Assembly: GCA_950295325.1 (NCBI GenBank)
Contig: OX485805.1
Location: 16,789,501-16,853,500 of the forward strand
Origin: Polytrichum commune
Lineage: Eukaryota; Streptophyta; Polytrichopsida; Polytrichales; Polytrichaceae
Length of the DNA: 64,000 nt
Direction of reading: 5' to 3'
Program-made: the position numbers and the translations under genes
The notes under the pieces: generated by a model
Told to the model about the DNA's origin: nothing
Databases searched by the model: none
Seen by the model: only the letters and a program-made list of their open reading frames with translations
In this document: in pieces, positions 14,280 through 62,600 of the stretch
Position numbering within the stretch: position 1 is the stretch's first letter
Layout: the number at the start of each line of letters is the position of its first letter

Positions 14280-14480
14280 AGATTCCACCACATTGTTTAT
14301 GGTATTTAGTGTCACTTACTATATGGAATTACTCAACGCTATAACTTTTTCCTAAGAATGTAATTTTTTTACATATTAAAGTCATTTATATTGTATATCA
14401 TCCATACAATATTTTTAATCTTTGTTGGTAACAAATGAAATCTATGGTGAGAAGCTATAGCCTTGTGTAATTCCTAATAG
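14280..14480. repeat. short inverted-repeat element (MITE-like), copy 2
   Basis: It shares TATTTAGTGTCACTTAC and TGGAATT with the element at 2703-2925, and its right end (TGTAATTCCTAATAGCAAAT) is the weak inverse of the left. It is AT-rich and non-coding. Confidence 0.45.
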
Positions 14481-14710
14481 CAAATCCACAAGCTTTCAAA
14501 ACACATATGCTAGCCACAAATATCTACTTTAGAGGCCAACCAATCCTTATACTTAGTCAACACAAACCATATGTCTACCTTGGTATCCACTTAGTTCCCT
14601 CGTTATAATGGAAAATACAAACCCACACAACCACAACCAAACTCATAAAACAATGTAGACTTTTGATCACAAGCCCAACCACCATGGAAAAAATAAAAAA
14701 ATAAAAAAAT

Positions 14711-17700: not shown

Positions 17701-17900
17701 CACTTATTTTGTCAATGAAAAATATTGAAACTAAACTAAAACTCCATGTCACAAAAATCAAGAGCACATTTAAACAAATCAACACAATAGCCATAGAGTA
17801 CGCACACTCCATATTAGACCACATAAAAAAGACTATAAAATAGACAAACCATCACAAACCTCCACAACCTACCATAGACCGCACCATTCACGACTCAAAC
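14711..17900 (+). pseudogene. long G-poor retroelement-like coding relic
   Basis: The plus strand across roughly 3 kb is strikingly poor in G and rich in A and C, and reads as a chain of broken open segments. Recognisable pieces are SIKKLDRKVIALPKAMYGLP...GEQLVNALNDKGILGKIYKG (14760-15000), IYDNTNRHLITIPKSRFQWL (about 15970), and a Cys/His-like WQHVLLKC (about 17250). The last part, at 17500-17840, holds TKIKSTFKQINTIAIEYAHS. The order resembles the end of a plant or algal LINE-type ORF2, but I do not recognise a catalytic motif, so the class is inferred. The frame is destroyed by many stops and shifts. Confidence 0.45.
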
Positions 17901-18154
17901 ACCATAATTCAAATCCTCCAACTTAGCAAATAAATAACATGCATCCCACTACGAACCCCCCACATCCCATTGCAAAACAACACAAGAATAAAACATTGGT
18001 GGTGGTACAAACCGCTTTTAGCTCAACTAGCAATTGCTCGGGGATAGGCCACTGGTTGATACACACTTCCTGCCTACCATTCACATCTAGCAATACCAAG
18101 TCACATCACACCCATATCCACTCAAACAAGTTCCCAATAATCAAACCCGGACCA

Positions 18155-22294: not shown

Positions 22295-22789
22295 TCACAA
22301 TTGAACAATTGATACGACCTTTGGATGAGAGTCAAGGGCCCTCGTGATCACGGTTGTTGGCTCTTGTGTGAAGTGCCCCTTGACGTAAAGACCTGGCCTT
22401 GATTTTTGTTTGTTATTGTAGAGTACCTCACGTCACGTATTCTCCCTCTGGCTTTTCCGGAGAGCATTTAGATTTCCTATTACATGTGGAAGCGTCTAGA
22501 AATCATAGCTAAGGCTTTTAGGTGTGGTGAGTCCCTCGAGACATGACATCATTGGGAATAAGCCCCCCCGCTTGGGCTCTTGTTCTTGGGCCTCGTTTCC
22601 AATAACGCCATGTCTCTTGGGCCTCACCTATTGCATACTGAAGTCACTTGAGGCCAATCCGTGCAATCTTAGCCGTTGAGAGCAGGGAAGTTGAGACTTA
22701 CCACTTCACACGGGGTCCCAACTCCTAATTAAGTCCCAAGTATGACATGGATGCACATATGGTCCTCATGTCAATCCGTCCTCATGGCA

Positions 22790-23935
22790 ACATGAGGAGT
22801 TCCTCTTGATAGGAAAAGGCCGTGGATATCAAGTTAGTGGGTCAATGTGAATGAGGGTTGTTATGGTCCCCGCTCCCAATACAGTCACTAGAGGTAATGG
22901 TGGCAACATGAGGAGTCTCTCTTGATAGGAAAAGGCCATGGATATGAAGTTAGTGGTTCAATGTGAATGAGGATGTTTTGGCCCCGCTCCCAGTATAGTC
23001 ACTGGAGGTAATGGTGGCAACATGAGGAGTCCCTCTTGATAGGAAAAGGCCATGGATATCAAGTTAGTGGGTGAATGTGAATGAGGGTTTTTGGGGTCCC
23101 GCTCCCAGTACACTCGTTGGAGGTAATGGTGGCAGCATGAGGAGTCCCTCTTGATAGGAATAGGCCATGGATATCAAGTTAGTGGTTCAATGTGAATGAG
23201 GATGTTTTGGCCCCGCTACCAGTATACTCACTGGAGGTAATGGTGGCAGCATGAGGAGTCCTTCTTGATAGGAAAAGGCCATGGATATGAAGTTAGTGGT
23301 TCAATGTGAATGAGGATGTTTTGGCCCCGCTCCCAGTATAGTCACTGGAGGTAATGGTGGCAACATGAGGAGTCCCTCTTGATAGGAAAAGGCCATGGAT
23401 ATCAAGTTAGTGGGTGAATGTGAATGAGGGTTTTTGGGGTCCCGCTCCCAGTACACTCGTTGGAGGTAATGGTGGCAGCATGAGGAGTCCCTCTTGATAG
23501 GAATAGGCCATGGATATCAAGTTAGTGGTTCAATGTGAATGAGGATGTTTTGGCCCCGCTACCAGTATACTCACTGGAGGTAATGGTGGCAGCATGAGGA
23601 GTCCTTCTTGATAGGAAAAGGCCATGGATATGAAGTTAGTGGTTCAATGTGAATGAGGATGTTTTGGCCCCGCTCCCAAGACACTCACTGGAGGTAATGG
23701 TGGCAGCATGAAGAGTCTCTCTTGATGGGAAAAGGCCATGGATATGAAGTTAGTGGTTCAATGTGAATGAGGATGTTTTGGCCCCGCTACTAGTACAATC
23801 ACTAGAGGTAATGATGGCAACATGAGGAGTCCCTCTGGATAGGAGAAGGCCATGGATATGAAGTTAGTGGGTGAATGTGAATGAGGGTTTTTGGGGTCCC
23901 GCTCCGAGTACGCTCGCTGGAGGTAATGATGGAAG
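22790..23935. repeat. tandem satellite, ten units of 114-116 bp
   Basis: The phrase CATGAGGAGT starts at 22791, 22907, 23021, 23136, 23250, 23364, 23479, 23593, 23707 (variant) and 23821, a period of 114-116 bp. Units 3 and 6 are identical, units 4 and 7 are identical, and units 2 and 5 nearly so, giving a higher-order repeat of three units (343 bp). Each unit contains CCATGGATAT(G/C)AAGTTAGTGG and a GC-rich CCCCGCT. No variable spacers separate the units, so it is a satellite and not a CRISPR array. The last unit fades into the GC-rich upstream region of the next gene. Confidence 0.9.
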
Positions 23936-24521: not shown

Positions 24522-27500
24522 ATGGTGACCATGGGGGCTTCGATGCCCTTGGTGCGGGAGGTGTTGAGTTCCACGGTGCTGGCGAATGCGCACTCCAGCA
24601 GCTCAGGAACCTCCGCGTCCTACAGCAGCAAAATCCTCACCTCCTCTTTGGCGCCCAAATCCTGTCGTGTGAGGGACGCTGGCAATGCTCTACGAAGATG
24701 CGTCACGTTGTCTACCCGGGCTGCTCCCAAGTGTGCTGTAAGTCCACGAATCGCCTGGGGCTCGGATTTGTTGATGGTCGTCACCATAGGGGAAAAAATG
24801 GTGGAATCGTGATTTAGGCTTTAAATTGAGTTGTGCACATTGCTTCAAGGAGTGGTGCCAGGGCATTGATTTTTCTGATGGTTTCCGAGGCATCGCTTGG
24901 AGATACCGCGATCCTGAATTGAAATCCTACGTGACCAGCAGATCCTGTTCAGTTGAGGATCTTCCTGGTGTATTACACCCGTGCCCAGATTACCAACCGT
25001 GGAGCATACGTTTTGTGTTATCACAATTACCTTCTGTCTGCAAGGGTTTAGGTGGTTAGGTTGGAATTTGGTCGGAATGGATGTTTGGGTGGTGGGTGTA
25101 TAATCCACTGCTTTTTTCGAGCAAGGGTTACCATTGAGTGCAATCCCCCCTAGAACCGCTCAAGATTATGATAGGAATCCGAAAATAATCTCAGCGAGGG
25201 AGCACCTTCTCTATGTGCATTTAAATTTCTATACCGAAAACAATGAAGTCATCAGCAGATTATTAGGCGGCGGCTTGTCTGCCCTGCTCAAACGATAGAG
25301 GTGATGGTTGCGGTAGATTTGCATAAGTAAATTCAGGTGCATCTCAAGTTGCAGAGAAGTAATTGAAGATGGGTGTATGTTCAGAGCTCCACACGAAGTG
25401 CGCTTGTGGAACCAGAACTGATGCAAGCATCCACCGTAGAAGACAGTGGTCTTGAGAAATTGCACCAGATGGTCAAGAATGTTTCAAGCGTGGGGGACAC
25501 GCGAGCTCGCACACAGATTATCCTGGAATTGGCTGCACAGTTACCTCGCCTGCCTGCAGAGGCAAAGGTCTCTGCGAATCGAGTGATGGGTTGCACTTCA
25601 CAGGTCACTCACAACATTCTTCTAAGCTTTCTGTTGAATAGGAGGAGTTTTGTTCTCAAATTAATAGTATGCTGTAGAGATTACACTGGACAATCCTGTC
25701 TTTATGGCTTTAACATTGTGGCGTCTCTCTATGCCAAATTGTCAATGGGCGTTTCTTCTGAATTATTGTGTAGGGTCCTCATTGTCAGGAACAGAATGTG
25801 ACGCTAAATGTTTCTTGCTGGACTTCACAGGTTTGGCTTACAGTGGAGCTCTCCAATGATGGGAGAGTCTATGTTGGAGCAGACAGCGATTCTGAAGTGA
25901 CTCGAGGATTATGTGCATTACTGCTGCAGGGAGTGAATGGAACCACAGCTGAAGAATTGCTTGCTGTGCCACTTAGCGTATTAAAAGGTCTGAGGATTGG
26001 AGTGGAATCGCAATCTCGTGCCAACACTTGGTCCAATGTTCTTCTTACATTGCAGAAGCGAACGAGCCTCCTGATTGCAAAGAAAGCTGGCCTGTCACCC
26101 GTTGAACCATTCCCATCGCTTCTCATTACCGCTGACAATGTTGTTGCACAAGGAGCATTTGCAGAAGCGCAGGTTAGTCATACCTTCAAATCTGTGTGAT
26201 GTACTCCCAATTGAGTTCTCAAATCAGTCATACGTTATATTGTATTTAGCTCTTCCTGAAGGTTCCTTCTGGAACTCTTTAGGGATTGATATTTATTTTC
26301 TTGTTGCGCAGGCAAAGTACTTGTTGCCAGATGCCATAAAAGTGCAAGAACTAGCAGCCTTACTAGAAGCGAAGCAGATTGGCGTCGTTGCCCATTTCTA
26401 TATGGATCCAGAGGTGCAAGGGGTCCTTGTGGCAGCACAGCAGTTATGGCCACATATACACATCTCAGATTCACTGGTGATGGCTGACCGTGCCGTTAGT
26501 ATGGCAAATGCTGGATGCAAGCACATTGCTGTGCTAGGTGTAGACTTTATGTCCGAAAATGTGCGGGCTATTCTGGACCGTGCTGGGCATGAGAAGGTGA
26601 GTTGTGAGTTGTTGCAAATTTAGAGAGTAGCTTGTCTAATCTGTCACTTGAATTGCAATATCTGGAACACTTCTACTATTCTCGGAATACAGTTCCATCT
26701 TAGTTATGCAGTTAAACTGGTTAGGGTCTGTGCTGTCTCAGCCTGTTGCAGCTGTGCATATAAATTAATGTCAGTCATCCCTGCACTGTCCACCTGACAT
26801 GCTACTGTCGTTGGTGGAACTCTGGAATGGCCTCTGAGTAAATGCCCATTCGACCTTGCAGATCCAAAGTTCCAAAAAGTAGAGTAGACTAATTTGGGCC
26901 TGTGCTATCTTCGCTTGTTGCAGCCACGCATATGAATTAATTTTCAGGGCCATCCCTGCATCGTCTGCTCAACATGCTGCTGTTAGTGTCTGGTTGTTTT
27001 GGAACTTTGAAATGGCAAGTGTGTCAATGCCCATGTGCCCTCTCCATCCCAAAGTTTCAAAATGTGTACTAGATGTGTTGACTAATCTTCGAGATGCATA
27101 TGGGAGAGATTAAAGTGTTGACCAAATTCTGGCTTTGAGCTTTGCAGGTAAGCTTGTATCGCATGTCAGCAGGTCATATTGGCTGCTCTTTGGCAGAGGC
27201 AGCTGAAAGCCAGTCATATCTCAATTTTCTGCAAGAAGCAGCAGCCACTCCAAAGTCGATGCACGTTATCTACATAAATACATCTCTTGAGACTAAAGCA
27301 CAGGCTCATTCGCGTGTGCCAACGATCACATGCACTTCTTCCAACGTGGTGCAGACAGTTTTGCAGGTGTGGATTCGCTACTTCAATTATCTTTCATGTG
27401 AATGATGCGATTTCCATTTTCTGATGTGTTTATTTTATTGCATTTTTGATTCAACAGGCGGACTGTTGGTTAGTTGGTCTGGACACCAAAGTGCAGAAAT

Positions 27501-29854
27501 ATTGAAGTTGAAGCATCTTTGTGAATATTGATGTCTAACTCTCTTTTTGTTTGTGTCTTGTGCTATCAACAGGGGTTTGCTCAAGTTCCAGATTTGACGG
27601 TATGGTATGGTCCAGATTCATACATGGGTGCCAACCTTGCTGAAATGTTCCGGCAAATGCTATCTTTCAGTGATGAGGAAATAGCAGCAATTCATCCCTC
27701 TCATACAAGACAAACTATATCTGCACTCCTGCCCCGGTTGAAATATTTCCAGGTTTGTACATTGCAGCAACATATAACTCATAACTGATAGTTTAAACAG
27801 TGGCTGATGCTTCCAGAACTATGGTAAAGATTGTGATTATATGCACTGTTGAAAACTGAGCAGGGTAGTGAAAAGTGGTGTCAGTAATAACAGTAGTGAA
27901 TACAAAACACTCGCGGCTTTTTGAAAACTTTGTGCTTGTTCTCTTATGCATGTCTGTTGCCATGTGAGCGCCCTGAGGAATTTGAAGTCTGACTCCTCAA
28001 GGTGATGGTTGGTTGGAGGATATAGAGTTTAAAAATAAGTGAAGCATCAGTAGTCATTACAAGAACACAGCACAATTTAGTCGTTCATTGATGGTGACTT
28101 TGGGGGAACTTTCGGCCCACTTTACCATAGCCAAGGTCCTTGAAGCATTGACCATGAAATTGTGAGGGCCCTTGAATCTTATCTGAAGGCTGTACCATGG
28201 AAATTGAAACTAAATTTTGTGTGGTCACGGGCCTTAAGCGTGCTCTTTAGGTGAAATTGATGCAAAAACCGATAGGCCATGAAATATTATTCACTGCAGG
28301 CCATTGAGGTCTCCATGTAGGTTTTTCACCCATTCAAAAATCTCTATTGTAAAGTCCTTAGGTTCTGAAGCTCTAGTGTGATGGTCTTGGCATTTTAATG
28401 GTCACGGGTGCTCAAGTTTTAGTGTAATGTGCCCCTTAGGCAGGCAGGCTTCCATTTTTAATAGAATTGCCACTTACCTAGTCTACTTTCTGATTTTGTT
28501 TGTATGTTGCCCTGCAGGATGGAACATGCATAGTGCATGACATCTTTGGCAAGGATGTGGTTGATCGGGTGCGAGAAGGCTATGGAGATGCTTTTCAAAC
28601 CGCCCATTTTGAGGTTCCTGGGGAGATGTTTGCTCTTGCCATGGAGGCCAAGCAAAGGGGTATGGGAGTTGTAGGATCAACGTCAAACATACTTGACTTC
28701 ATCAAAGCACGTGTGTCAGAGGCTCTTGACAGAGGATTTGATGACCACCTTCAGTTTATTCTTGGAACTGAAGCAGGAATGGTTACTTCAATAGTGGGTG
28801 GTGTGCGCAAACTCTTAGCTGAGAAGCAAACAGATGCTAAAGGCAGTCAGGTAGAGGTGGAGATTGTGTTTCCAGTATCTTCGGACGCAATTAGTTCGAC
28901 TTCTTCACTTTCGAGCAATAATGCAGGTTATGAGTCGACTTTTGCTAAGCTCCCAATTGTTCCAGGAGTGGCTTCTGGAGAGGGATGCTCAAGTAGTGGT
29001 GGTTGTGCATCTTGCCATTACATGAAGGTTAGTACAATTTTCCTGCCTTCACTATTTTACCTTGTTGCAGTCTCTATCCAAATGATAGACAATTGCATTG
29101 TATTGTCATTTTTATGATTTGTGCTGCTGTCAAGGTAATCAGGCCTAACTCGGTTACTGATCTTAACCAAGCACCTATTTCTGAGTTGTTTGCATCTAAG
29201 AACTGACACTAAGAAGATATGTGCTTAAAATCTATTAACTATTTTAGGTTCAATAAGCAACATAGTTGGCGGACGTTTTTGATCATTTAAGAGACAAATT
29301 TGTCACTACGATAGTGAATATCAGTTATGAAAATTATGAGGAAAATGTCTACTACGTTGATCTGGATTTGCAATATGAATTGTGTTTTCAATAATCTAGG
29401 AGAAGTGGGTGAAGAGCTCAAAATGTTCATTTTAGACCCACTTACCTTAATGACTACGAATTTCAACTTCAACCTTTCATAAAATGGACATGCTATTATT
29501 TTTACAGATGAACACGCTGGACTCTCTGCTCCATGTCTGCCGGTTAGTGGAGACACCAGGTGAACCACTTCTATCTGCCCATCAAGCACGAACATACACC
29601 TATCTTATAGATGGTCAAACTTTGGGAGACCTTGGGTGCGAGCCTATTCTACACATGCGCCATTTTCAGGTACTGCACTTCACTGGTTGTAACAGAATTT
29701 GAAGATAAGCTTATTTGGTCTATTGTTTACAAGCGAGTCTCTCACTTAGCTTGATCATGACAACTCCATCTTTTGCGAGAGATAACAAAGGATTGTTGTA
29801 TTGCAGGCGACGGGACTTTTGCCAGATGCTCTAGTACAGCAAATCTGCAGATGA
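24522..29854 (+). CDS. QS: quinolinate synthase, plastid (SufE-NadA fusion)
   Basis: Exons 24522-24737, 25385-25603, 25831-26172, 26312-26596, 27148-27366, 27573-27752, 28518-29027, 29508-29669 and 29807-29854 join in phase to 726 aa, close to the known plant protein length. The enzyme condenses iminoaspartate with dihydroxyacetone phosphate to quinolinate, the second step of plastid NAD synthesis. Residues 1-72 are a Ser/Ala-rich transit peptide. About 73-230 is a SufE domain with RVMGCTSQ (putative sulfur-accepting Cys142) and supports repair of the Fe-S cluster. About 260-726 is NadA, with GVVAHFYMDPEVQG, ITCTSSN, LGTEAGMVTS and the cysteine cluster GCSSSGGCASCHYMK (C644, C650, C653) expected near the [4Fe-4S] site. 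The usual CPYM is CHYM here. All introns are GT-AG and all lie in phase 0. Confidence 0.95.
26719..27075. repeat. tandem duplication inside quinolinate synthase intron 4
   Basis: Two diverged units with a 172-bp period lie within the intron. GGGTCTGTGCTGTCT...CTGTTGCAGC at about 26724 matches TGGGCCTGTGCTATCT...TTGTTGCAGC at about 26896, followed in each by CATCCCTGCA, CATGCT and CAAAGTT(T/C)C. It is non-coding. Confidence 0.6.
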
Positions 29855-42426: not shown

Positions 42427-42534
42427 CTGTCGTGTAAACTAAGATCGTTAAACACAACAGATCGAGTGTCGTCGTCAACATCAATTAGCAAAATAAAATA
42501 GCAAACTAAAATGCTAAACAACCACCTCTTCAAG
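42427..42534. repeat. 108-bp direct repeat, outer copy beside the 3' LTR
   Basis: Identical over 108 bp to 42970-43077; it begins CTGTCGTGTAAACTAAG and ends CCACCTCTTCAAG. It lies outside the 433-bp LTR core. No copy adjoins the 5' LTR core at 52457-52887. Confidence 0.9.
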
Positions 42535-42535
42535 A

Positions 42536-42968
42536 TGAGGGTTTCTCTCTCCAAGCTTAAGAAACTAAAATGTCTCCTTACAAAGCTTAAGAAACTCTAA
42601 AATTCACACACAAGAGTCAAGCTATCTCTCACTCCACGAAGGGAGAATCCAAGAGTGCAAATGGTGGAGAAAGAATGCAAAAGCTTTACTCATAATCTAT
42701 TACACCATAGCCATGAGAAAGCAACAACAAGCTCTCTCTCTCTCTCAAAACACACTCACAAGACTTGACTTGACAACAATGGCAAGTCAAGAGGCCTTCC
42801 TCTCCATACAACCCCAATCCTATGTGGAGTTCATCCATGGAGTGGATGAACAACTAACTAGGACTCCCAATGGAGTCCGTTACTCATCCCAACACACATG
42901 GACTCCTAGTGGAGTCCATTTACTCCTAAATTGACGTGACTTAGCCCCCGATGTCACCTCACGTGACA
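42536..42968 (-). repeat. 3' LTR core (433 bp)
   Basis: It starts TGAGGGTTTCTC and ends CACGTGACA on the plus strand (TG...CA). It differs from 52457-52887 by two substitutions (both within CAAATGG/CAAGTGG and AAAAGC/AAAGGC words) and by one extra CT in the CTCTCT run. The near identity indicates recent insertion or recent homogenisation. Confidence 0.9.
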
Positions 42969-42969
42969 G

Positions 42970-43077
42970 CTGTCGTGTAAACTAAGATCGTTAAACACAA
43001 CAGATCGAGTGTCGTCGTCAACATCAATTAGCAAAATAAAATAGCAAACTAAAATGCTAAACAACCACCTCTTCAAG
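42970..43077. repeat. 108-bp direct repeat, inner copy beside the polypurine tract
   Basis: An exact copy of 42427-42534 lying between the LTR core and the polypurine tract (TGCCCCCACTA on the plus strand at 43078). Its place next to that tract suggests it is the true start of U3, so the complete LTR may be about 540 bp. Confidence 0.9.
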
Positions 43078-43402
43078 TGCCCCCACTAGCAGATAAGGAG
43101 CCCCTCCAATCGGCTAGGAACACACACACTCATCGGTAGAGTTGTTGAACATGATGAAGTTGTTGCTACATCTATACATATTCAATTGGGTAGTGGTAAT
43201 CTAAGGAATTAAACTCATGATTGAGAAAGTAATCCAAGAACTATAGGCTGGGTGCAATTTGAGCCCCATCCTTAATCGCCTTCAACCATTTAATGTTGAA
43301 TTCTTGGATAACTCTTTCAATGTGGTCTTAATTCCATAAAATTTCCAACCAACTAAATAACAACTTCACCACTAAAACATGAGGTAAACATCCACAAAAT
43401 TC

Positions 43403-44720
43403 TCAATCATGACCATTAACGGCCACGGAATGAGAGGCTTTCCGATAACGAGGACAAACCCAATTGCCAGAAGGAAGAGTAAAAATGGGAGGTGTCAAAC
43501 ATGCCATGTGCCATCCACGTTGACATTGGTCGCACAATAACATTGTTGCAGCTCTTTTCTTCTCTCCACAAACATAACAAGGCAGACCCTGTGGTACAAC
43601 CGCCAACTCGGGATGCACAGAGCCGTCGATGGGAAGGTGACATGGAGCACAATTCTTTGAATGCTCACGACATTCCCGTCCATCCTTGCCTTCAAGCAAT
43701 AATATACCACTTGGCAAGACATCTTTTACCCGCAAAATCGTGCGCCCAGCCTTAACATCCAATGTCGTAGGCGCCTCCCGTTGCAAGTAAACATAATCCC
43801 CCTTGGAAAATCTACGAACCCGAGGTCGATAAGCTCCACTGCGGATCCGGGCATACCGTAATGTATCACGATGTTGAGCAATATTTAAGTTCTCCATAGC
43901 CATAGGCATGGCCTTTTGGAAGAACGCTGCTCGGTCATGAAGACATTGAGCCCAAACATCTGGATCATCCAAGTTTACCACGGGAGCCAATTTCTCTCGC
44001 ACCGAGCTAGGTAAAATTGGTTCCCGTCCATACAAGAGTTGGTAAGGACTATAGGATGCCAAAGATGCTTGCCTGCTGAAACGATAACCCATTGCTATCC
44101 ATGGTAACATCAAGTCCCAATCGCGATGGTTGCCATGAAGCAATCCTTACTTCCGCAAACCACGCTTAACTATCTGAACAACTCGTTCAGCTAAGCCATC
44201 TGCCTCAGGGTGATCTCTGGAAATTGTCCGATGATCCATCAAAGCCTTGGTACACAAAGCCTCGAAAGATCCAAGGAATTCTCTCCCTTGATCCGTCAAC
44301 ACCTCTGCAGGTGCTCCAAACCGTGCCAAAACTCGATCAAGAAATGCCATAGCCGCCAATTATGAGGAATTTTGGGGAAGAACCACGAGTTCAATCCACT
44401 TACTAAAATGCTCCACCATTACAAGCACATATTTGGAACCACGTGGAATGATAGTAAGCGGTCCGGCAAAATCCAAAAGACCAACGATATCCCAAGCCCA
44501 TAATAGGTAAAGGCTGAAGTTGAGGTGACAAAGTATTAAAACTTGACCTGACCCGGTCACATACTTCACACCGAGAAACATAAGTGGCAACCTGTTGATA
44601 CATACCAGTCCACCAATATTGGTTGCGCAACATAGAGTACGTCCTTCGCACTCCAAAATGTCCAAGCTCCTCGTGCACTTGCCGCACCAAAGAAGCTCTT
44701 TGTTCTGGCCTTGGAACGAT
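43403..44720 (-). pseudogene. integrase with GPY/F-like region and C-terminal PHD finger
   Basis: The HHCC zinc module (RQVHEELGHFGVRR, RCEVCDRVR) is at about 44560-44690. The catalytic core follows across a one-base insertion near 44473: DFAGPLT holds the first Asp, VLTDQGREF the second, and the ADGLAERV region the Glu. The core is cut by TAA at 44360 and TAA at 44147. Then come YQLLYGREP and a strand-rich KGDYVYLQREA segment that resembles a GPY/F module. The last module is a PHD finger (43445-43579). Integrase joins the cDNA to chromosomal DNA, and C-terminal reader domains in related chromoviruses steer site choice. Confidence 0.85.
43445..43579 (-). other. PHD finger domain fused to integrase
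   Basis: CYVCGEKK, LLCDQC, GWHMAC and WVCPRY give the spacing C-x2-C-x11-C-x2-C-x4-H-x2-C-x14-C-x2-Y, the C4HC3 pattern of PHD fingers with the last zinc ligand changed from Cys to Tyr (codon TAT, one G-to-A step from TGT). PHD fingers read histone H3 tails. Most related elements carry a chromodomain here or nothing. Confidence 0.88.
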
Positions 44721-45953
44721 GCGCCTCGTTCTGTTCGGCCACACACGAAATAACAAGCTGTTTACCCAATGAAACCTTGTTATCCGGTGACTAACTCTAT
44801 CTCGCTCCATAGAATATAGTCCAAGAGGAAATATCCCTTGTTGAAGTTTGTGCAAGACCGCCTGGTCTTCCCACACATCACTAACAACGAGAGATTTATC
44901 AACCTCCTCATCTTGCTCTTCCACAAGGATTTCAGCAGCCAATCCCGACATCATTGTGAGATGCGTGGCAGCATGCCAACCCGGCACTGCCTCACGATTA
45001 CAATTTCCATGCCACCTGGCTCCAGTTAAATCCTCATCTGAAGGACTTGGATTGCGAGACAATCCGTCTGCATCCAAGTTGGCAATTCCTGCTCGGTGAA
45101 CAACTTCAAAATCATATTCCTGAAGTAACAATGCCCACCTAGCAAGTTTTCCGGTGAGCTTATCTGATTCCATAAGCCATTTTAAAGGCTGATGATCAGT
45201 CATCAAAGTAAACTTCTGCCCATACAAATAAGGTCGAAAATGTGCAATGGCCCAAACGGCCGCCAAGGCCTCGCCTTCATAAGAAGAATAATTAGATTCA
45301 GCACTATTATTACTTCTAGATACATAAGCCACCACATATTCCTTTCCCTCTTTATCTTTCTGTGTCAATACCGCTCCCAATCCCACTGCACTCCAATCCG
45401 TGTGCAATTGAAAAGCTCTAGACACATCCGGGCGTCGAAGCACTGGCGCTGAACCGAGCCTCTGTTTCAATGTATCAAATGCATGTTGTTGTTCCCGACT
45501 CCAAATCCATGGTTGGTCTTTCCCCGTGAGAATGGTAAGAGGTTTGGCAATCAAACTAAAGTTTTTGACAAACCTCCTATAATAATTTGCCAATCCTAGA
45601 AATGCACGAAGCCGTGGTACATCACTAGGTGCGGGAATTTTGTGCAAAGCATCCACCTTCGCCTGTTGCACACCAAGACCGCCAGGAACAATCATGTGGC
45701 CTAAATAGGGCAATTGATCATGGAAAAACTTACATTTCTCATGATGTAAACGGAGTCCCCACCGTTGAAGTCGTTCAAATACCGCTTGCAAATGTCTCAC
45801 ATGATCCTGTGGACTGTTACTAAAGATGATAACATCATCAATGTAATATCTAGCAAACGGCAAACCAGCCAATAATTGGTCCATCACCCGCTGAAATTCA
45901 GCTGGTGCATTCTTGAGACCAAATGGCAGAAATTTCCAATGATAAAGTTGATC
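44706..45953 (-). pseudogene. reverse transcriptase C-terminal half and RNase H
   Basis: After the DNA transposon insertion the frame resumes with WKFLPFGLKNAPAEFQ, the RT motif before the catalytic YYIDDVIIFS (about 45830-45850). The thumb and connection follow (RLHHEKCKFF, LGHMIVPGGL, RAFLGLANYYRRFV). RNase H (about 45047-45410) has HTDWSAVGLGAVL, YEGEALAAVWA and TDHQPLKWL with Asp, Glu and Asp in the expected places, then NLDADGLSR. The order RT, RH, INT defines Ty3/gypsy. This segment is free of stops. Confidence 0.92.
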
Positions 45954-45961
45954 CTTGCCAT

Positions 45962-46372
45962 CACGGGGAGGTCACTCCATTGTCAAATTGAAAACCACGT
46001 GCGAACAAAAAAAATCTATTTTTTCTAAGTTGCATCAACAAAATGGGTCAAAATTTTATCAAATTTTTTTTATGAGTACATATACATGGTATCTATTACA
46101 TAGTAAAAATTGACAACCAAATGTGATAATTTGTTTTTTCTAGAAAACATACCGTTTCTAACTAGAATGACGCAGAAGTGAACTAAAACAATTACTAGAA
46201 AAAATGGAGATAACTAAATATTTCAAAAAAATATACAAAAGATATTATAAATGGATATGTATATATAGAAAAAATATCATAATTTTTAAAATTATCTATA
46301 GCATATAATATAGGGGTAGCAAACTTTGTTCGCACGTGGTTTTCAACTTGACATTAGAGTGACCTCCCCGTG
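45962..46372. mobile_element. 411-bp non-autonomous DNA transposon inside the RT gene
   Basis: The 48-bp terminal inverted repeats (45962-46009, 46325-46372) match at 45 of 48 positions and begin CACGGGGAGGTCACTC. The 8-bp word CTTGCCAT is duplicated on both sides (45954-45961, 46373-46380). An 8-bp duplication fits hAT-type elements, although the repeats are long for that group. The interior is very AT-rich and non-coding. Removing the element and one duplication restores the RT reading frame exactly, so it inserted into an intact frame at this point. Confidence 0.92.
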
Positions 46373-46966
46373 CTTGCCATCTTTATCAATTCCCCAAAAT
46401 GCGGTCTTCACCCGATCACCCAACAACAAAGGTAATTTGTGATAACCAGACCTCAAATCCAAAGTGCTGAAGATTCTAGAAAATCCTAGTGCATCAAACA
46501 ACTCCTCCGGCATCGGCATTGGATATCGATCCGACTTGGTCTTGTGGTTGACTGGACGATAATCACCATACATCCGTTTTTCCGTCCAGTTGCCAAAGAT
46601 ATCCTTCTTTGACGGCATAACCGTAGCACAAGCATACTCTCCATTGGAGAGTTCAATCAATTCCGCTGCCAATAACTCTTGACATCGAGTTTGAACACCC
46701 AACCTTTCAGAGGTACTAAGTCTGTACGGCCGTCTGAAAATAGGGTGGTTGTCCTCGAGTTGAATACGAACAGGTTTACCTTTATATCCTTCAAGATCAT
46801 GAAGACTAAAGGCAAAACAATTACGGTAAGAGCGAATAAATGCCCGTACCTTTCGTGCTTCGGCACCAGTAAGCTTTGGCCCCACTTCAATTGGCCAATC
46901 GTCAAACTCCGTGGTTTCCTTCTTCATAGAAGAATTGCCACTTGGTGCCAGCACAGCCTGTGATTG
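46373..46966 (-). pseudogene. reverse transcriptase N-terminal half
   Basis: It reads GYKGKPVRIQLEDNHPIFRR, PYRLSTSERLG, then KKRMYGDYRPVNHKT-like NWTEKRMYGDYRPVNHKTKS and DRYPMPMPEELFDAL. RT motif A is IFSTLDLRSGYHKLPL with the first catalytic Asp. The end is KTAFWGIDKDGK, where the 411-bp transposon interrupts. A TAG at 46967 separates it from the upstream linker frame. RT copies the element RNA into cDNA. Confidence 0.9.
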
Positions 46967-47299
46967 CTAGTCCGTGAAGAGGGCAATACCTTTGCCCCCA
47001 TCATCTGCATTTGAATCCAAATGCGTATCCTCTCCACTACAATCAGTTTGTGTAGCTAAATAGCTACCCACATATGAAGTATCACCAAGAAATAGAAGTG
47101 GAAACATTTTATGGGCCTCCAACTTTCCAAACTCTTGGGCCAAAGCCGAAAAAACACGTTGGGCTCGAAGCTCTTCCGCAACATAAAGTTTCAAAGGAAA
47201 TAATTCCTCGGTGTCATTGACCTCAATGTGATCCTTGGATTGCGGCTCCATTGCCCCTTGACCATTGTTCTCTGCCCTCAGAGTACGCAATTGGTCATC

Positions 47300-48262
47300 C
47301 ATACGTTGTTGAGCAGCAAGACAAATTCCAATTATCCACACAATGCTGTGAAGATCCATAGCTTACCCTAATAGGAAACGTCTCTGACCTTCCTGAAGCC
47401 CGTGAGCAGCCGTGGTACCTGTAAGAAAACCCATGGCGCGTTCCCGCTCATCTGCCGTAGGCTCCTCATAAGTTTGGAATTTTGAATCCCAAACCATGCC
47501 AGGTCCACGAGATCGAAATGCAAAAGACTGTGGATATGTCACAAAAGTAGGTAGTGCACCTCTTGGAATGCCCACCTTATTAATTAATGCAAATGGCAAG
47601 GTGTCATCCTTGGTAACTGCCAAGGAAACACGATGATCATCTAAAATGTCATCCACTTTGCGATCCATAAGGCGGGGAATGCGGGCAATCGCCGCTGAAA
47701 GCACCCGAGGTGATACCAAGTTGGTCCAAAACCAACGAGGCCGATGAGCAAAGGATCCCAAAGATGCAGCATCCAGAAATGTTGGAATACCCAGAATTTG
47801 GTTAATGTACTCACCATCCTTCACCATTTTGTGCCGGGTATCACCCAATAATGGTACATTTTCGAAAATGTACCCTGGCGGAGTTGATTGGTGGGTAAAC
47901 CACCATTGCGTCAATCGCGTCAAATCCGCAAACAAACTAGACCTAGGATCATCCAATCCCTGGCCAGTTCCTGCCCGCGAATGGCCTTGACAAGGCCATC
48001 CTGCAAGAATCAAATCCACGTGGCCCAACCTTCTCAAATCCTCATCACTAATCATAGTGACATCTTGAGGAAGTTGACCACAACATCCATGAATCGCAGA
48101 GGCTGACAATTGTGCGGGGTATCTCAACAACAATTGTTGGATGTGGTGTCAGACGGCTCTGTTGGCTGCATACCCATTGTCCACATGAATATATCGTCAA
48201 ACTGTAATTCCAGCTTCCAACACTGCCGCCAAACCTGTGTCAATGCCTCCAAAAATCTCCAC
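47300..48262 (-). pseudogene. C5-cytosine DNA methyltransferase domain (DNMT3-like) in the retrotransposon polyprotein
   Basis: About 320 codons hold the catalytic motifs in the canonical, unpermuted order. Motif I is VEIFGGIDTGLAAVLEAGI. Motif IV is LILAGWPCQGHSRAG, with the catalytic Cys in PCQ. Motif VI is YIFENVPLL, and motif VIII is AHRPRWFWTNL, close to the AHRARYFW of DNMT3. A target-recognition-like stretch is followed by ADERERAMGFLTG and by RRFLLG/AMDLHSIVW as motif X. The order excludes the rearranged plant DRM type. TGA stops at 48197-48199 and 48149-48151 and a TAA at 47363-47365 (inside motif X) break this copy. It shares one frame with Gag-protease and RT, so it was made as part of the polyprotein. 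It transfers a methyl group from AdoMet to cytosine C5; the substrate is presumably the element's own DNA, which is inference. Confidence 0.93.
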
Positions 48263-51049
48263 AAGGACAATACCTTCAGATGATGGTTGCCAACGAATGG
48301 GTTGAACAAAAGAAAATGAGGATAAAGTTGGAGGTGCCTCTCCAAGCTCCAAATCCGCTACGATGTGTCGACAATGGTCGGATAACTCCTTAGGAGTTCG
48401 CCATGGTGGAGGTGGATCCTTGAAATGTCGAGCAAGAATTTGAAAAGATGGTAAAAATTGTTGTTCTGCCGCATTACAAGTGTAGTCCATTGTTTCCTCC
48501 AATAAAATTGGAGCACAAGGCAAATCTGCAACTGAACCGCTGCAACCAAACATTGCCTCCGCAACCATAGTCATAGCAGTGGCTGCAAATGTGATGGGAA
48601 TAAATACCTTCCTGCCATCTCCAGTGGACCATCCCGGTCTAATCCATGCCTCTTCCGTCCAATTATCCAAACCAAAGCCAAGTGGGTAAAGAGCTTGCTG
48701 ACCAACAAGTATATCATAGTTGGTAGCATTAGTAACAACACACTTCATTGACAAATGAGTGTAAGTAGGCCCTGCCCCCACATGAAAAATCAAACGTAGA
48801 GGTGCCTTGGTGTAACCTGTTGCACGTTCAGTGCCCCCTACTGAAGTCACAATAGTGAATGGACAAGGATCCAAGCTTGCTGGCGTCAATCCAAGACTGT
48901 CAGCAAGTCCTTTGCCAATCATAACCGGTTGAGCACCGGAATCCATCATAACTCTCAGTGGTGTAGCACGGATAGTGGGCATATCCGTGCGTGAAACGAC
49001 AAACAAAGATTTGTCGTTCATCAGCCGTACAACTCCAGGTTGCAAATTATGCCGTTCGCGAGCAGGCCTTGCAGAAATGTCTGCAAGATATGCCGCTCCC
49101 GACGCATAATTCGAAAATGACGTATCCACTGCTGAAATTGATGCTGGAGGAATATCAGTTTGCTTACCAAAAGTAATGATCGCCGCATCCGCAAGACTTG
49201 CTCGCAAATTGGCTAAGTCCTCCACCTCGTCAACCACAGCTTGGGATACTTGAAGGGATGGCAAAGCCGCCTTACCTTCTAACATTCTCCCAGCTAAATG
49301 AAAAACTGCAGCAGGCTTGAAATCCGAAGCCATAAATTCCGAACCCGAGAAAATTGGCATATGGAGAATTTTGTATGCCAATGCCTGCGTAACATCCTTC
49401 GAGATGGAATCCCCATCTCTCAAAGGTACAGGGTTTTTAGCCCCAACAACAGTGGTGTCTACCAATCCAAATGACAAAGGTAAACGTGCTTGACCAATCT
49501 GATCAGCTGGTCCGGCATGGCGAGGATGTAGCACCTCGTTGCTACCACCACTCGTGGAAGCCACCGCATCTGCTAATGTTTGTGAACGAGTAGAAGCCGC
49601 CGCCACCACCTCTCCAGCTGCTCCAAACATATACATGTCCGAACCCGAGGTGCCACCACTCACATGCGGCTCAGAAATTTGAGCAAAAGATGCAGAAGAT
49701 TTAAGCTTTTGCTCAAGCTCTGCCACCTTAGCCTCAAGACTTTGCTCCCTTTGAGACTTTCCAGTGACATAACTGGCAGGCCGCATCTCAGGATGTAGTT
49801 GGAAACAATGATCCACATCGTGATTAGTGCCACCACAATGGTTACATTTCAATTGTCTCTTCTTAGAATTGTCCCCTGCCTTTACTGGTTCCATCTTTTG
49901 TTTTAATTTTCCCAAAGGTTGAGTTTTCTTCTTCTTAGGACAATTGGGATCATTCTTCGAATGACCAGCTTCTTCACAACCCCAACAATACAAAATCTTT
50001 TGCTCCTTGACGGGTTGAGTCTCAGCTAAACTACTAGTAGCTGTGACAATTCTTCTTGGTTTCGGATTCTCTGTCATCCAAGATACCATATCCGTGGCAT
50101 CATGTTGGCAAAGAGCCCGATCACATCTCTCAACCACGGCAAACGCTTGTGCAAGCGTAGCTCGGCCCTCGTAATCGAGGATAATCCGAGGTGATGCCAA
50201 CTCAAGTAGCCGCTTGTCAATCTTAGACAAAAAAAATTTAACAAGCTGACTCTCAGCAAAAACACCTCCCGACTCCACAGCAAATCGCGCGAGTCGCGTA
50301 TACATGGTCCGTGGAGTATCATCCTTCTCTCGGCGGAAATCCTGGATGCGCTGCATCTGGTCTCGCCGAAACCCACCATACTCCACTTCCAAATGTGCGA
50401 CAAATTCAGTAAGGGGATTAAACGGAGGTGGTGGACCAACAGCCGTCAATGCTGCCTGTGTAGCACGTGCCACCCGTAAAAGGGTTGCCGTGCTACTGCT
50501 AGCCACCATTGGCCCAAGTGCCAGTTCCGTGTCCTTAGACTCCGCCGGCGATTCCTCCTCCTTTAAGGTGGGTGGAGCTAATGTAGCAATCGCCCCATCT
50601 TTAAGGGCTGAAATAAGCTCAACCCGGGCCTCCCAATACTGCTCCACCTCCCGAAGTTGTCGCTGATGACCCTCTGTCCAGCGTTCATAAGTTTGGAGTG
50701 CCTCATACTCCAAATGCTGAGGCAGAAGTTCAAAGGCATACCAATCATTGAAATTGGAAGACCTTTGGCGTTTCTCCTTAATCCAGGTACGAAACCGGAG
50801 TTTCCAATCGGGCAAGGAAATGCCCCCAGCTCGACCTAAGAACCGATCACGCACTGAATTGTGGCGATCGTCCTCCATTTCGTCGAACGTGCCGACACTC
50901 CAAATCCGAAGCCTACTAGTAGTGTCCAACGCCGAAATAGGCTCAAAAGCCTCGTTGGTATCTACCTCTGGCTCAAGATTTGTGGTATGCACGTCCTCCA
51001 AGTAATCTGGTGATGGCGATCGATAATATCGGCTCCTAGTTTGCACCAT
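48197..51049 (-). CDS. Gag-protease polyprotein running into methyltransferase motif I
   Basis: This is the longest intact frame in the window (950 aa, ATG at 51049). Residues 40-330 are an alpha-helical capsid-like Gag (FGKQ-free, rich in Arg and Glu; RDRFLGRAGGISLPDWKLR, EFVAHLEVEYGGFRRDQMQR). There are two CCHC zinc knuckles, CWGCEEAGHSKNDPNC (355-370) and CNHCGGTNHDVDHC (402-415). An Ala/Ser-rich linker follows, then a retropepsin-like protease with MMDSGAQPVMIG (catalytic Asp703) and YDILVGQQAL (778-787). Residues 930-948 are the AdoMet-binding motif I of the methyltransferase, so the frame ends inside that domain at a TGA. Gag packages the RNA and protease processes the polyprotein. Confidence 0.9.
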   Translation of the reverse strand: MVQTRSRYYRSPSPDYLEDVHTTNLEPEVDTNEAFEPISALDTTSRLRIWSVGTFDEMEDDRHNSVRDRFLGRAGGISLPDWKLRFRTWIKEKRQRSSNFNDWYAFELLPQHLEYEALQTYERWTEGHQRQLREVEQYWEARVELISALKDGAIATLAPPTLKEEESPAESKDTELALGPMVASSSTATLLRVARATQAALTAVGPPPPFNPLTEFVAHLEVEYGGFRRDQMQRIQDFRREKDDTPRTMYTRLARFAVESGGVFAESQLVKFFLSKIDKRLLELASPRIILDYEGRATLAQAFAVVERCDRALCQHDATDMVSWMTENPKPRRIVTATSSLAETQPVKEQKILYCWGCEEAGHSKNDPNCPKKKKTQPLGKLKQKMEPVKAGDNSKKRQLKCNHCGGTNHDVDHCFQLHPEMRPASYVTGKSQREQSLEAKVAELEQKLKSSASFAQISEPHVSGGTSGSDMYMFGAAGEVVAAASTRSQTLADAVASTSGGSNEVLHPRHAGPADQIGQARLPLSFGLVDTTVVGAKNPVPLRDGDSISKDVTQALAYKILHMPIFSGSEFMASDFKPAAVFHLAGRMLEGKAALPSLQVSQAVVDEVEDLANLRASLADAAIITFGKQTDIPPASISAVDTSFSNYASGAAYLADISARPARERHNLQPGVVRLMNDKSLFVVSRTDMPTIRATPLRVMMDSGAQPVMIGKGLADSLGLTPASLDPCPFTIVTSVGGTERATGYTKAPLRLIFHVGAGPTYTHLSMKCVVTNATNYDILVGQQALYPLGFGLDNWTEEAWIRPGWSTGDGRKVFIPITFAATAMTMVAEAMFGCSGSVADLPCAPILLEETMDYTCNAAEQQFLPSFQILARHFKDPPPPWRTPKELSDHCRHIVADLELGEAPPTLSSFSFVQPIRWQPSSEGIVLVEIFGGIDTGLAAVLEAGITV

Positions 51050-52456
51050 AAAATAATCACTTGAGAACCTGCAACTATCTACAAGGTAATGGCAACCTGC
51101 ACCTGTTGCGGGCTATCTAAATGGCAATTCCTTGCCAAATGCCAAGTGTTTATGCCCCCAGAATTCCAAAATTGTGCAAAGGTTTGAGATTGGTAATTAA
51201 AATGAAAAATCAGCGTTGAAAAGGCTCATTTCCAAGGTGATTATGAACTCCAATCAACAAACTAAGTGCACCAATGGACTCCTAGGAAGATTTCACACAA
51301 ATTAGGCTCAAATTTCACTCCAATCGGAGTTAATTTGCTCCCAAAAACAAAAATCAGCGTTGAAATTAGCAATTTCAGCAATGATTTTGACTTCCAATCA
51401 AAAATCCAATTACACCATTGGATTCCTTGGAAAATTTCACACAAAATAGGCTCAAATTTCACTTCAATCGGAGCTAGTATGCCCCCAAATTTGAGCCTCA
51501 AAGTTTGTGACAATGAAATGCCAAATTTGAAAGTGAAAGTAAAATAAAATAAAATAAAATAAAATCCGGTTTATTTAAAATTTTAAAAAATAAAAAAATA
51601 AAACAAAAAAACAAAACAAAAAAAATAATTAATTAACTTAATGAACTTAATCTAAGTAACTTAATTAGCCTAAATGAATTAACTTAATTAACTTAATTAA
51701 ATTAAACTAATGAACCTAATTAATTAAGTTAATCTAAGTTAATGAACTAACCTAATTAACTAAGTGAATTAACTAACCTAATTAACTAAGTGAATTAACT
51801 AACCTAATTAACGAATTAAGCTAACTAACTTAATTAATCAACTTAATCAAGCTTAGTCAACTTAATCAAGCTTAGTCAACTTAATCAAGCTTAGTCAACT
51901 TAATCAACAGTCAAACTTACCTTGAAAAAGGGGGGGGGGCCAGGCTGGCGCCGCCCGCCACCTCGGCCAGGCTGTCGCCCGCCCGCCCCCGGCCCCGGCC
52001 CGCTGCCACCTCGCCGCGGGGCCCGGCTGGCGCCGCCCGCCCGCCCCCGGCCCGGGATGTTGCCGCCCCCAGATGCAGAATTGGAGCTCCAAGAGGGTCC
52101 GGTGAGCTCCGGATCCGTCCGGAGCTCAACCAAAATTAAAACTAAATCGGATTTTGATTGTGGTTTATGTTTGTATTTAAATTAAACTTTGCTTCACAAT
52201 TTGCAAGCAAGAAAATGTGACTTGAGAATCTTGAAACTAAATGGAATCTCAAGATTCAAACATCAATAATTGAAGAAAATACAAGAGACAACCAAAGAAA
52301 AATGGGAAGATTTCTCTCAAAATCTTCTTGAGGATTGCAAGAAATGACGAACTAAGCTTTCAAACACTTGTATCACTCATTTGCTCTCATTACTGGGCCA
52401 TTCTAGCTCAGAAATACAACCAAAAATTAAAAATTTGAATAAATTGTTGTCAAGTA
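51050..52456 (-). other. long untranslated leader of the retrotransposon
   Basis: 1.4 kb lies between the 5' LTR core and the gag start. It contains a two-unit tandem repeat of 144 bp (CAGCGTTGAA at 51211 and 51355), an AAAAT run (51540-51565), a 250-bp block of AATTAACTTAATTAA-type repeats (51630-51900) and a sharply GC-rich block (51930-52075, G-rich on the transcript strand). No usual TGG primer-binding site adjoins the LTR: the transcript-strand sequence there is TACTTGACAACAATTT. Confidence 0.7.
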
Positions 52457-52887
52457 TGAGGGTTTCTCTCTCCAAGCTTAAGAAACTAAAATGTCTCCTT
52501 ACAAAGCTTAAGAAACTCTAAAATTCACACACAAGAGTCAAGCTATCTCTCACTCCACGAAGGGAGAATCCAAGAGTGCAAGTGGTGGAGAAAGAATGCA
52601 AAGGCTTTACTCATAATCTATTACACCATAGCCATGAGAAAGCAACAACAAGCTCTCTCTCTCTCAAAACACACTCACAAGACTTGACTTGACAACAATG
52701 GCAAGTCAAGAGGCCTTCCTCTCCATACAACCCCAATCCTATGTGGAGTTCATCCATGGAGTGGATGAACAACTAACTAGGACTCCCAATGGAGTCCGTT
52801 ACTCATCCCAACACACATGGACTCCTAGTGGAGTCCATTTACTCCTAAATTGACGTGACTTAGCCCCCGATGTCACCTCACGTGACA
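52457..52887 (-). repeat. 5' LTR core (431 bp)
   Basis: TG...CA ends identical to those of 42536-42968, with two substitutions and one CT unit fewer. It lacks the 108-bp block that flanks the 3' LTR core. It should carry the element's promoter. TGAC follows at 52888. Confidence 0.9.
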
Positions 52888-59572: not shown

Positions 59573-59633
59573 CCACAAGAGCTGAGCTGAGAGAGTGAAG
59601 GAGCGAGCTCAAGCGGAAGCTAAGAGGCCGGCT

Positions 59634-62600
59634 ATGGCGTCCTGGCGATGCCTGGGCCGCGCAAGGCTCGTTCTACAACCCGCGCTGGGCCAACAAATTC
59701 ATCTCCGACCACTACAATCCTCCTCGCTCGCAAGGGCGCAACCATGGAAACGCACCAACGCTTCCGCCTCTGTTCGTCGTCCCGCAACGACACCCACAAC
59801 TACCGTGTTGCATTCGACGACGACGACGACGACGAGGAGCACTCGGCCCAGGCCCACTGCAACGCAGGTGATGACTAAGGAAAGCAACTCCACCAGCAGC
59901 ATTAACCCAACAGAGACGGAGTACGAGGCCGTGATAGGAATTGAGACGCACGTCCAGCTGTCGACAGCCACCAAGGCGTTCTGCGGCTGCCCTTCGCAGT
60001 ATGGAAGCAAACCCAACACCAATGTGTGCCCCGTGTGTATGGGATTACCGGGCGCACTCCCCGTGTTGAACGAGAAGGTGGTGGAGTCAGGGGTGAAGCT
60101 GGGGCTGGCTCTGCAGTCCGACGTTGCGCTTAAATCCAAGTTCGATAGGAAGCAGTACTTTTACCCTGACTTGCCGAAAGGGTACCAGATTTCGCAGTTC
60201 GATGTGCCCATTGCCACCCGGGGTTTTATTGAGGTGGACTTGCCTGTGGAGTTTGGGGGCGGCCATCGAAAGTTTGGGGTTACCAGAGTTCACATGGAGG
60301 AGGATGCTGGAAAATTGATTCATGCGGGGAATGACCGGTTGTCAGGGTCCTCTTCGTCCCAGGTTTGTATTTTGGTGATCAATTCCTTCTCTGAATCTAC
60401 TTTTGAAGTGGACAATTTTTTTGTGGATTGAATTTTAACGGAAGTGTGGAGCTAAAACCCTGTGCATGTTTTAGCCATGTGAGGACATTCTCTTTCTATT
60501 CTAGCGTCGAGAAGAATTTTTGGAAAATTCATGTCCTTCATTGCGTGCATTCAGTGTAGAATGTTGGTGTCATGACCCCCAGGTTTGGATGATGATGTTT
60601 CCTTCTGTGAATTGCACATTTTGGATTGATGATGTTTAACAGAAGTTTGAGCTAAACACTAAGCATTCCTGAGCCATGTGATGACCATCTCTTTTTTAAT
60701 TATAGGTTTGAATGTTTTTTGAAAGAAATTCTATGTCCTTGATTGCGTGCATTCAGTGTTGCACATTGGTGTCATGGTACCTTTCCTTCTCCACATCATC
60801 ACGTTCACATGCCTCCTTAACTGATAGAAAATGGCATTTCAATGTCGTTCTCTTCAGCCATAGGTTCACAAATTCTATCTACAATGGTTTTTTTTCTAGC
60901 AGTATGCATCACAAGAAACAACACAGTGCATTCTTGGAAAACCTAGTAAGGATTCTCTCTTTCTAATCTAACCTCAAGAATAAACTTCCAAGAATCAAGG
61001 TCCTTGTTTGTCTGCTTGAGTGCCGAGGATAGTCAAGTACCAAAGCTCTCATCAGTCGACACCTCATGATTGTGGCCTATCTTCAGACACAAAGCCTTCT
61101 CCCATCTACCAAGATTCAATTGATATGGAGGTTTGCCTCAAATAGAATCATTCTTAGGTTATCTGGATTACCTAAGAATGATTCCGTTTCCACCAGACCC
61201 TAAATAAGTTACTTAAGAATGTTATGCATGAAGGACAGCGATGCTTCGAAAAGACAGTGTACCTCCACTTTGCACTTTGTGCTGTGGAATTTAGGCGGAG
61301 CTGATTATGTGACGGTAGATTGGAATGTTATGCTTGGTTTTGCTCCTTGAGCTTTTGGAGCGGTTGGGGTGTTCCTCAAGCCGCGGATATATCTGAGATG
61401 TAGGAATCTACTTGCAGGTGGATTTGAATAGGGCTGGTGTGCCCCTGCTGGAGGTTGTTTCGGAGCCAGAGATGCGTACAGGACTAGAGGCAGCCGAATA
61501 TGCTGCAGAGCTGCAACGGTTAGTGCGGTACCTGGGTATCAGCAATGGCAACATGCAAGAGGGGTCCATGCGATGCGATGTCAACATATCCGTGCGCCCA
61601 AAGGGTCGAGCCCAGTTTGGTACCAAGGTTTTTCTTTACTCCTAATGACATACCACAATGTGAAACAATAAGTGATGTTCTTGGTGGTAGGGTGGAAATT
61701 TGGAGCAGGGCACTACAGCTTGAGACCATTTCACGAGAGAAATAATGTGCATTGCTTGTTCTTCCTGCTGAATTGCACACTCTGTTGCATTTGCTTCCAA
61801 GTTACACACTATGGAGGGTCAATCTTTAGACAAAGAAAATGACCTGACATGATTGTAGAATCCACCATTGTCTAACAGAAGCATGGATTCCGAGGGTTAA
61901 ATGGTCGGGTAATATAATTGTGCAGAAGCACTTTGAGGTGCCTTGATGTTGAAAGATACGGTCATCAATTTTGGTTATAAGTATGGCAGGTTGAATTCTT
62001 ATGAGAAATCGTTGTGTTGCAAGGCAAAAATTTCTAAGTGGTTCAATATTTTGTGAGGGTATTATCTGGTATTTGATCCATTGAGGTTCATGCTACTGAA
62101 GTTAGGAAGCTGTCCAATATCTGGAACCAGATCATGCCTTTTCCTCATTATTGTCATGGTGTGTCTGAAATGCTGTTTGGCAGGTGGAAATTAAGAACAT
62201 GAACTCCTTCTCAGCAATGCAGAAGGCTATTGAGTTTGAAATTGACAGGCAGGTTGCCCTTGTGGAAAATGGTGAGCACGTAAAACAAGAAACAAGGTTG
62301 TGGGAGGAGGGTTCTCAGGTACATTGTTGTCATTCTTGCTGTGTGTCATTATCTGCTAATTATTTTGACCTATCTTTTTTTGAGGAACCCATCAGTTTGA
62401 CAACTGTCAAAATGGTTTGTCAAAATGGCAAGGCAGATTCCATTCTGACGCAATAGTGCAATTTCCTTGAGCATAGTGCAATTCTAGGACTTCAAGTGGG
62501 ACTCTGTGTGTATCACCTATTGGTAACAGTCTGATCACCACTTGACACATGTTTGATTGTTGCAGAGAACCATAAGCATGCGCAGTAAGGAGGGCCTTGC

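Follow-up and report, generated by a model that had tools for sequence, protein, structure and literature searches.

A disabled Ty3/gypsy-type retroelement copy in Polytrichum commune with a DNMT3-like cytosine methyltransferase domain that appears to end its first ORF

The window analysed here is a stretch of 64,000 nucleotides of Polytrichum commune DNA (contig OX485805.1). Its minus strand contains a Ty3/gypsy-type element with a DNMT3-like C5 DNA methyltransferase (MTase) domain. The features of the window are the following.

25367-29117 and 59586-60431, plus strand: host exons of SufE and NadA (quinolinate synthase) and of GatB
42427-52887, minus strand: whole Ty3/gypsy-type element, about 10.5 kb, with the repeat order A1 - coding - B1 - A2 - B2
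52450-52887, minus strand: terminal repeat A1 (5'), 98.9% identical to A2
48200-51049, minus strand: Gag-protease (Gag-PR) part of ORF1 up to MTase motif I, 39-66% identical to intact relatives (P0121-P0135)
about 47300-48262, minus strand: DNMT3-like C5 MTase domain, from PF00145, a profile search and the model of an intact relative, L001
46967-46969, minus strand: TAG, the predicted ORF1 terminator, followed by CAA TCA (fits UAG-CAR-YYA); identical in L001 at 3489-3497
44406-46966, minus strand: ORF2 with RT, RNase H and integrase zinc-binding domain (Pfam), broken by a MITE-like insert
45962-46372, minus strand: MITE-like insert in RT, with inverted ends of about 48 bp that are 94% alike and GATGGCAAG on both sides
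43406-44500, minus strand: integrase core (in a shifted frame) and PHD finger, with stops near 44360 and at 44149
42970-43077, minus strand: repeat B1, 100% identical to B2, with the tract AGTGGGGGCA immediately before it
42530-42968, minus strand: terminal repeat A2, from repeat comparison within the window
42427-42534, minus strand: repeat B2, the 3' end of the element, from the same comparison

We take the tract before B1 to be PPT-like, and the features of the insert in RT to be those of a Mutator-type non-autonomous element. The host genes of the window look plant-like; GatB and the SufE-NadA gene are presumably of the plastid type found in plants. The window also contains a tandem array of about 10 copies of a 114-bp unit (22785-23932), a region of strong strand asymmetry (14001-18000; GC skew -0.31 to -0.47, AT skew +0.20 to +0.29) and, in the leader upstream of gag, two direct repeats of 144 bp that are 78% alike (51199-51486).

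The initial annotation, made from the letters of the DNA, had proposed a DNMT3-like cytosine methyltransferase with its motifs in order, and searches with HMMs bear this out. An open piece at 47366-48148 (minus strand, 261 aa) matches Pfam PF00145 at 5.6e-12 (46.2 bits, cut-off 22) and includes motifs IV (GWPCQGHSRAG), VI (FENV) and VIII (AHRPRWFW). Motif I (VEIFGGIDTG) belongs to the last part of the upstream ORF (48197-51112), and the stop at 47363-47365 falls within motif X. The domain has three in-frame stops (48199, 48151 and 47365). The motif order I-IV-VI-VIII-X is unrearranged. Of the best 60 PDB rows for a family profile (A4), the top 29 are all DNMT3A/B/C with 71-84 bits, against 43 bits for DRM2, 41 for HhaI, 36 for DNMT2 and 14 for DNMT1. 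By profile, DNMT3 is the nearest class, ahead of DNMT1, DNMT2, DRM and bacterial MTases, whereas a single-sequence search of the PDB does not separate DNMT3A (26.6 bits) from M.HaeIII (26.2 bits). Identity between the family and animal DNMT3A/B is about 21-25%, motif IV of the family has PCQ rather than PCN, and no ADD or PWWP domain is matched, and a PHD finger is on the other ORF.

ORF1 starts with the ATG at 51049 and encodes two CCHC-type knuckles, seen by eye, and then an aspartyl protease (PF13650, 3e-4, below the curated cut-off). Matches to RT, RNase H and the integrase zinc-binding domain range from 6e-39 to 1e-18 (Pfam). This domain order places the MTase between the protease and RT of a Ty3/gypsy-type element, as had been suggested, and the PHD finger said to accompany it is also present (1.8e-10, Pfam). 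The order RT-RNase H-integrase with a DDE core is that of Ty3/gypsy in the window, in L001 and in the listed relatives. No tyrosine recombinase is detected by Pfam in the five open coding pieces of the window element or in ORF1 and ORF2 of L001, and these do not belong to the DIRS order. Nor is there a chromodomain after the integrase, as in chromoviruses, just the PHD finger (Pfam, window and L001).

The termini of the element are TGTCACG...CACGACA. Both flanks have GTCA, a candidate 4-bp target duplication from one insertion; the chance of an equal 4-mer at two random places of the window is 0.6%. Since A1 and A2 differ by just two mismatches and two gap openings in 440 columns, the insertion looks recent. 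The copy itself is dead. Three in-frame stops other than that at 46969, the MITE in RT and the integrase frameshift with its stops make full products impossible. The near-identity of A1 and A2 contrasts with these many coding lesions: the copy may have been mobilised in trans once it was already broken, or the A repeats may have been homogenised.

A scan of prokaryote genome contigs yielded one relative with DNA sequence. This contig, L001 (9285 bp), is recorded as part of a cyanobacterial (Synechococcales) MAG, closes on itself as one 9158-bp unit and is presumably eukaryotic contamination. Its ORF2 (1047 aa; RT, RNase H, integrase and PHD) is in the same frame as its ORF1 and is intact (rve 1.2e-13, PHD 4.3e-10, Pfam). 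P0001, a protein from an Obscuribacterales MAG, is named a DNA cytosine methyltransferase; eukaryotic elements in such bacterial MAG records (L001, P0001) are likely contamination that misleads annotation. Other relatives abound. The 261-aa MTase piece found 136 proteins, of which the 120 best were listed. The top ones, mostly from metagenomes, share 78-89% identity with the query; among named hosts is the liverwort Calypogeia fissa (MTase 46% identical). The last among those listed, from P0106 on, match weakly, several of them being named bacterial. The upstream ORF found 18 proteins. Ten of them (P0121-P0123, P0127-P0131, P0133 and P0134), with 1330-1435 aa and a conserved start Met, are Gag-PR-MTase proteins. 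Viral contigs scanned with protein query A2 gave 28 loci whose match is confined to the MTase region and adjoining residues, and with the ORF2 query none. Named relatives are liverworts and green algae. We rejected the possibility of a one-off insertion of the MTase, because close MTase relatives abound and MTase and RT share an ORF elsewhere. The domain neither falls outside the C5 MTases nor is absent from other family members, the two points on which the original proposal had been staked.

The layout of the family is ORF1 with Gag-PR-MTase and ORF2 with RT-RNase H-integrase-PHD, the MTase being DNMT3-like and unrearranged. A single frame that opens with the ATG at 51049 takes in Gag, PR, MTase and the first part of RT. 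Thus the earlier claim of the same frame for protease, MTase and RT stands as to register, but not as to one continuous ORF, which is interrupted at 48199, 48151, 47365 and 46969. The last of these stops appears to be a conserved ORF1 terminator and not damage, and since it occupies that position, a single continuous ORF is not expected in the family. RT is present in none of 24 ORF1-type proteins. Motif X is recognized by pattern in 18 of the 24, with a stop 98-143 aa later in every one of the 18; by alignment, the ORF1s of P0133 and P0134 end likewise, while P0124, P0126, P0132 and P0136 end earlier. Because the ORF1s of relatives stop soon after motif X without RT, the MTase of this branch can be assigned to the C-terminus of ORF1, outside Pol. 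The proposed capture into the polyprotein therefore holds as capture, the domain recurring in many relatives, but not as a position within Pol.

Both DNA copies at hand, the window element and L001, have TAG-CAA-TCA with ORF2 in frame downstream. A random hexamer fits CARYYA with a chance of 1/512. According to the accessible text of one study, UAG with CARYYA is essential for readthrough in TMV and gave 32% in one plant assay (PMC2754532). The UAG of ORF1 looks leaky, and Pol would be expressed by its readthrough. In ORF2 of L001 no Met precedes the one at the edge of RT. P0139 and the window copy have a Met shortly after the stop, so that a separate ORF2 start is possible in these two.

What might such an element do with its MTase? 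We consider it fairly probable that the window holds a disabled recent copy of a Ty3/gypsy-type LTR element of the KnitGypsy-Dnmt3 kind, for which the whole of the following scheme applies. The UAG would halt most ribosomes, so that the MTase is made at the level of Gag and packed into the particle, while readthrough of UAG-CAA-UCA would give the Pol extension. In the particle or in the nucleus, the MTase would methylate newly made cDNA de novo, chiefly at CpG sites. The cDNA (B-A-coding-B-A) would circularise at A|B, and the DDE integrase would open the circle at the palindromic B|A junction, giving A-coding-B-A-B and a short target duplication. Such opening would remove the dinucleotide GC that separates the CA end from the TG end, and the flanks would then show GTCA twice. 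We infer this circle step from one insertion with both ends. The PHD finger may read histone H3 at the target. MTase dosage at the level of Gag would not be general, since a single ORF encodes both MTase and RT in K. nitens, Closterium and others (13 of 120 listed ORF2 relatives).

That the predicted MTase methylates the element's own cDNA is plausible. Instead it could act on host chromatin near the insertion, or be retained as a nucleic-acid-binding portion of Gag or as a brake on transposition. We regard this as the less probable of the two, but as a serious possibility. We looked for CpG depletion in the element and did not find it; with CpG observed/expected at 0.69 in the element and 0.48 in the rest of the window, the element is the richer in CpG, so that no scar of self-methylation is visible and the idea of such a scar was rejected. 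The lack of depletion suits these alternatives. In the accessible text of the 2018 paper its authors also list a transposition brake and chromatin effects at the insertion site, and note that relatives without DNMT transpose too (PMC5890265). The same text reports that the KnitGypsy MTase domain gave no methylation in yeast, a result that the authors regard as inconclusive since DNMT3B did not work either, and that the SymbioDIRS MTases methylate CpG in yeast (PMC5890265). Against these alternatives stand the constraint on the MTase and the conservation of its catalytic motifs in intact relatives. Judged by substitutions between the window and L001, the family MTase is evidently under purifying selection (pN 0.186, pS 0.785; RT-RNase H 0.096 and 0.728; Gag-PR 0.285 and 0.785).

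The order A-coding-B-A-B could also be a rearrangement of one insertion rather than the natural form of the family. With one insertion available with both flanks the suspicion is legitimate, but we consider it unlikely. GTCA flanks the element on either side, the order PPT-B-A is the same in the self-closing unit of L001, and DIRS-like repeats of the same structure are reported for the K. nitens elements (PMC5890265, Fig. 4 legend). The PPT-B-A block of L001 is 74.6% identical to that of the window element over 201 bp and shares with it an exact 16-base match, CACGACAGCTGTCACG, at the B|A junction; this junction seems to be conserved between the two elements.

Very improbable, in our opinion, is that the MTase is a Pol domain here as in KnitGypsy-Dnmt3, the TAG before RT being another lesion of the window copy. 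The window copy does have other stops, and K. nitens P0192 and 12 other listed relatives do have MTase and RT in one ORF. However, TAG-CAA-TCA is also in the otherwise intact L001, and the intact ORF1s (1330-1435 aa) of relatives end at the same place. For this branch, one continuous gag-pol with the MTase inside Pol was rejected on account of these ORF1 ends and of the TAG before RT. Non-seed plants do have DNMT3 genes, but a host DNMT3 gene beside the element, or inserted there by chance, can be dismissed, for intact relatives encode the MTase as one protein with Gag-PR, 43 of 120 listed others encode it in one ORF with RT, and the RT and MTase trees have their deepest split in common.

The position of the MTase differs across the family. 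Searching with L001 ORF2 gave 997 proteins, of which the best 120 were listed. An MTase profile matches the same ORF in 43 of these and does not in 77; PHD is found in 92. Thirteen have the MTase before RT, including K. nitens P0192 and Closterium P0219 and P0244. In the other 30 it is between RNase H and integrase, with less than 100 bits in five (P0207, P0221, P0224, P0235 and P0241). RNase H and integrase are 506-753 aa apart in the 30, against at most 344 aa in 76 measured relatives without MTase. P0241 (Tetrabaena socialis) has a stretch of 568 aa there with an 18-bit MTase match and none of three motif patterns; is its MTase decayed or repurposed?

Two quick trees, with SH-aLRT support only and long-branch warnings, set the relatives with RNase H-MTase-integrase order apart. 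The RT tree (97 rows: 95 of the 120 listed proteins, the window and L001; 25 with RT or RNase H short or missing were left out) has a 100% branch with 31 rows of this kind on one side, 28 with and three without MTase, and all others on the other side. In the MTase tree 26 rows of this kind form one branch (99%). It has 94 rows: the window, L001, one DNMT3A on a long branch, five bacterial MTases and 86 proteins, kept from 178 with a match above 15 bits if they had more than 80 bits and at least 225 model positions. Since the clade is separate in both trees, the MTase either moved once or was captured twice. Its three members without MTase (P0187, P0195 and P0201) have a gap of about 200 aa and are either MTase losses or relatives predating capture. 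A wider suggestion can be made, which we hold to be possible but rather doubtful. There would be an old green-lineage clade of PHD-gypsy elements that retained a DNMT3-like MTase while its position shifted: in Pol ahead of RT, between RNase H and integrase, or, in the land-plant branch of the window element, behind Gag-PR and before a leaky UAG, with capsid dosage. Unlike ordinary LTR elements, these would integrate by a DDE enzyme from a circle opened at the conserved B|A junction.

We know other examples of retrotransposons with C5 MTases. The KnitGypsy-Dnmt3 class was published in 2018 from one green alga, Klebsormidium nitens (de Mendoza et al. 2018, PMC5890265). As its accessible text describes it, that class shares with the window element Gypsy domains, a DDE integrase, an unrearranged DNMT3-like MTase under purifying selection and the DIRS-like repeat layout. 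K. nitens P0192 (PR-MTase-RT-RNase H-integrase; 47% identical to L001 ORF2 over 88%) is among the listed relatives, and the annotation was right that this kind of element had been reported from charophytes. The two differ in that KnitGypsy-Dnmt3 has MTase and RT together in the Pol ORF, whereas the MTase of the window branch closes ORF1 and a TAG-CARYYA stop precedes RT. Because the MTase is not within the Pol ORF, the window element is a variant of that kind. In the main text of PMC5890265, as accessible, the words PHD and moss are absent and "stop codon" occurs once, on premature stops. SymbioDIRS-Dnmt3 and SymbioLINE-Dnmt of dinoflagellates likewise carry C5 MTases but are DIRS and LINE elements, which have a tyrosine recombinase or an endonuclease, and are described there as independent captures (PMC5890265). 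Suppression of a stop codon is described in another plant retroelement, the soybean Sirevirus SIRE1 (PMC2829016, accessible text). SIRE1, however, is Ty1/copia, its stop is between Pol and an envelope-like ORF, and it has no MTase. DIRS/PAT elements have the A-coding-B-A-B repeats but use a tyrosine recombinase, in contrast to the DDE integrase and candidate target duplication of the window element. In the accessible parts of a mostly non-subscription literature, including PMC5890265, PMC12344493, PMC6317226, PMC8226300, PMC2829016, PMC9033089, PMC3441728 and PMC2754532, we found no description of the land-plant layout, the TAG-CARYYA stop or the RNase H-MTase-integrase order. The kind itself is published. 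What is added here is an MTase that closes ORF1 ahead of a conserved stop of the readthrough type, a third MTase position shared by a sister clade, the breadth of the family, and the conserved B|A junction.

The family extends well beyond the published K. nitens case, and the position of the MTase has changed within it, so that methylation can be set against gain, loss and dosage of the MTase. If a gypsy integrase works with DIRS-like ends, two modes of replication that textbooks keep separate would be joined. If the MTase is made at the level of Gag and packed with the cDNA, these elements would offer a natural test, in culturable plants, of why a parasite marks itself with the silencing signal of its host.
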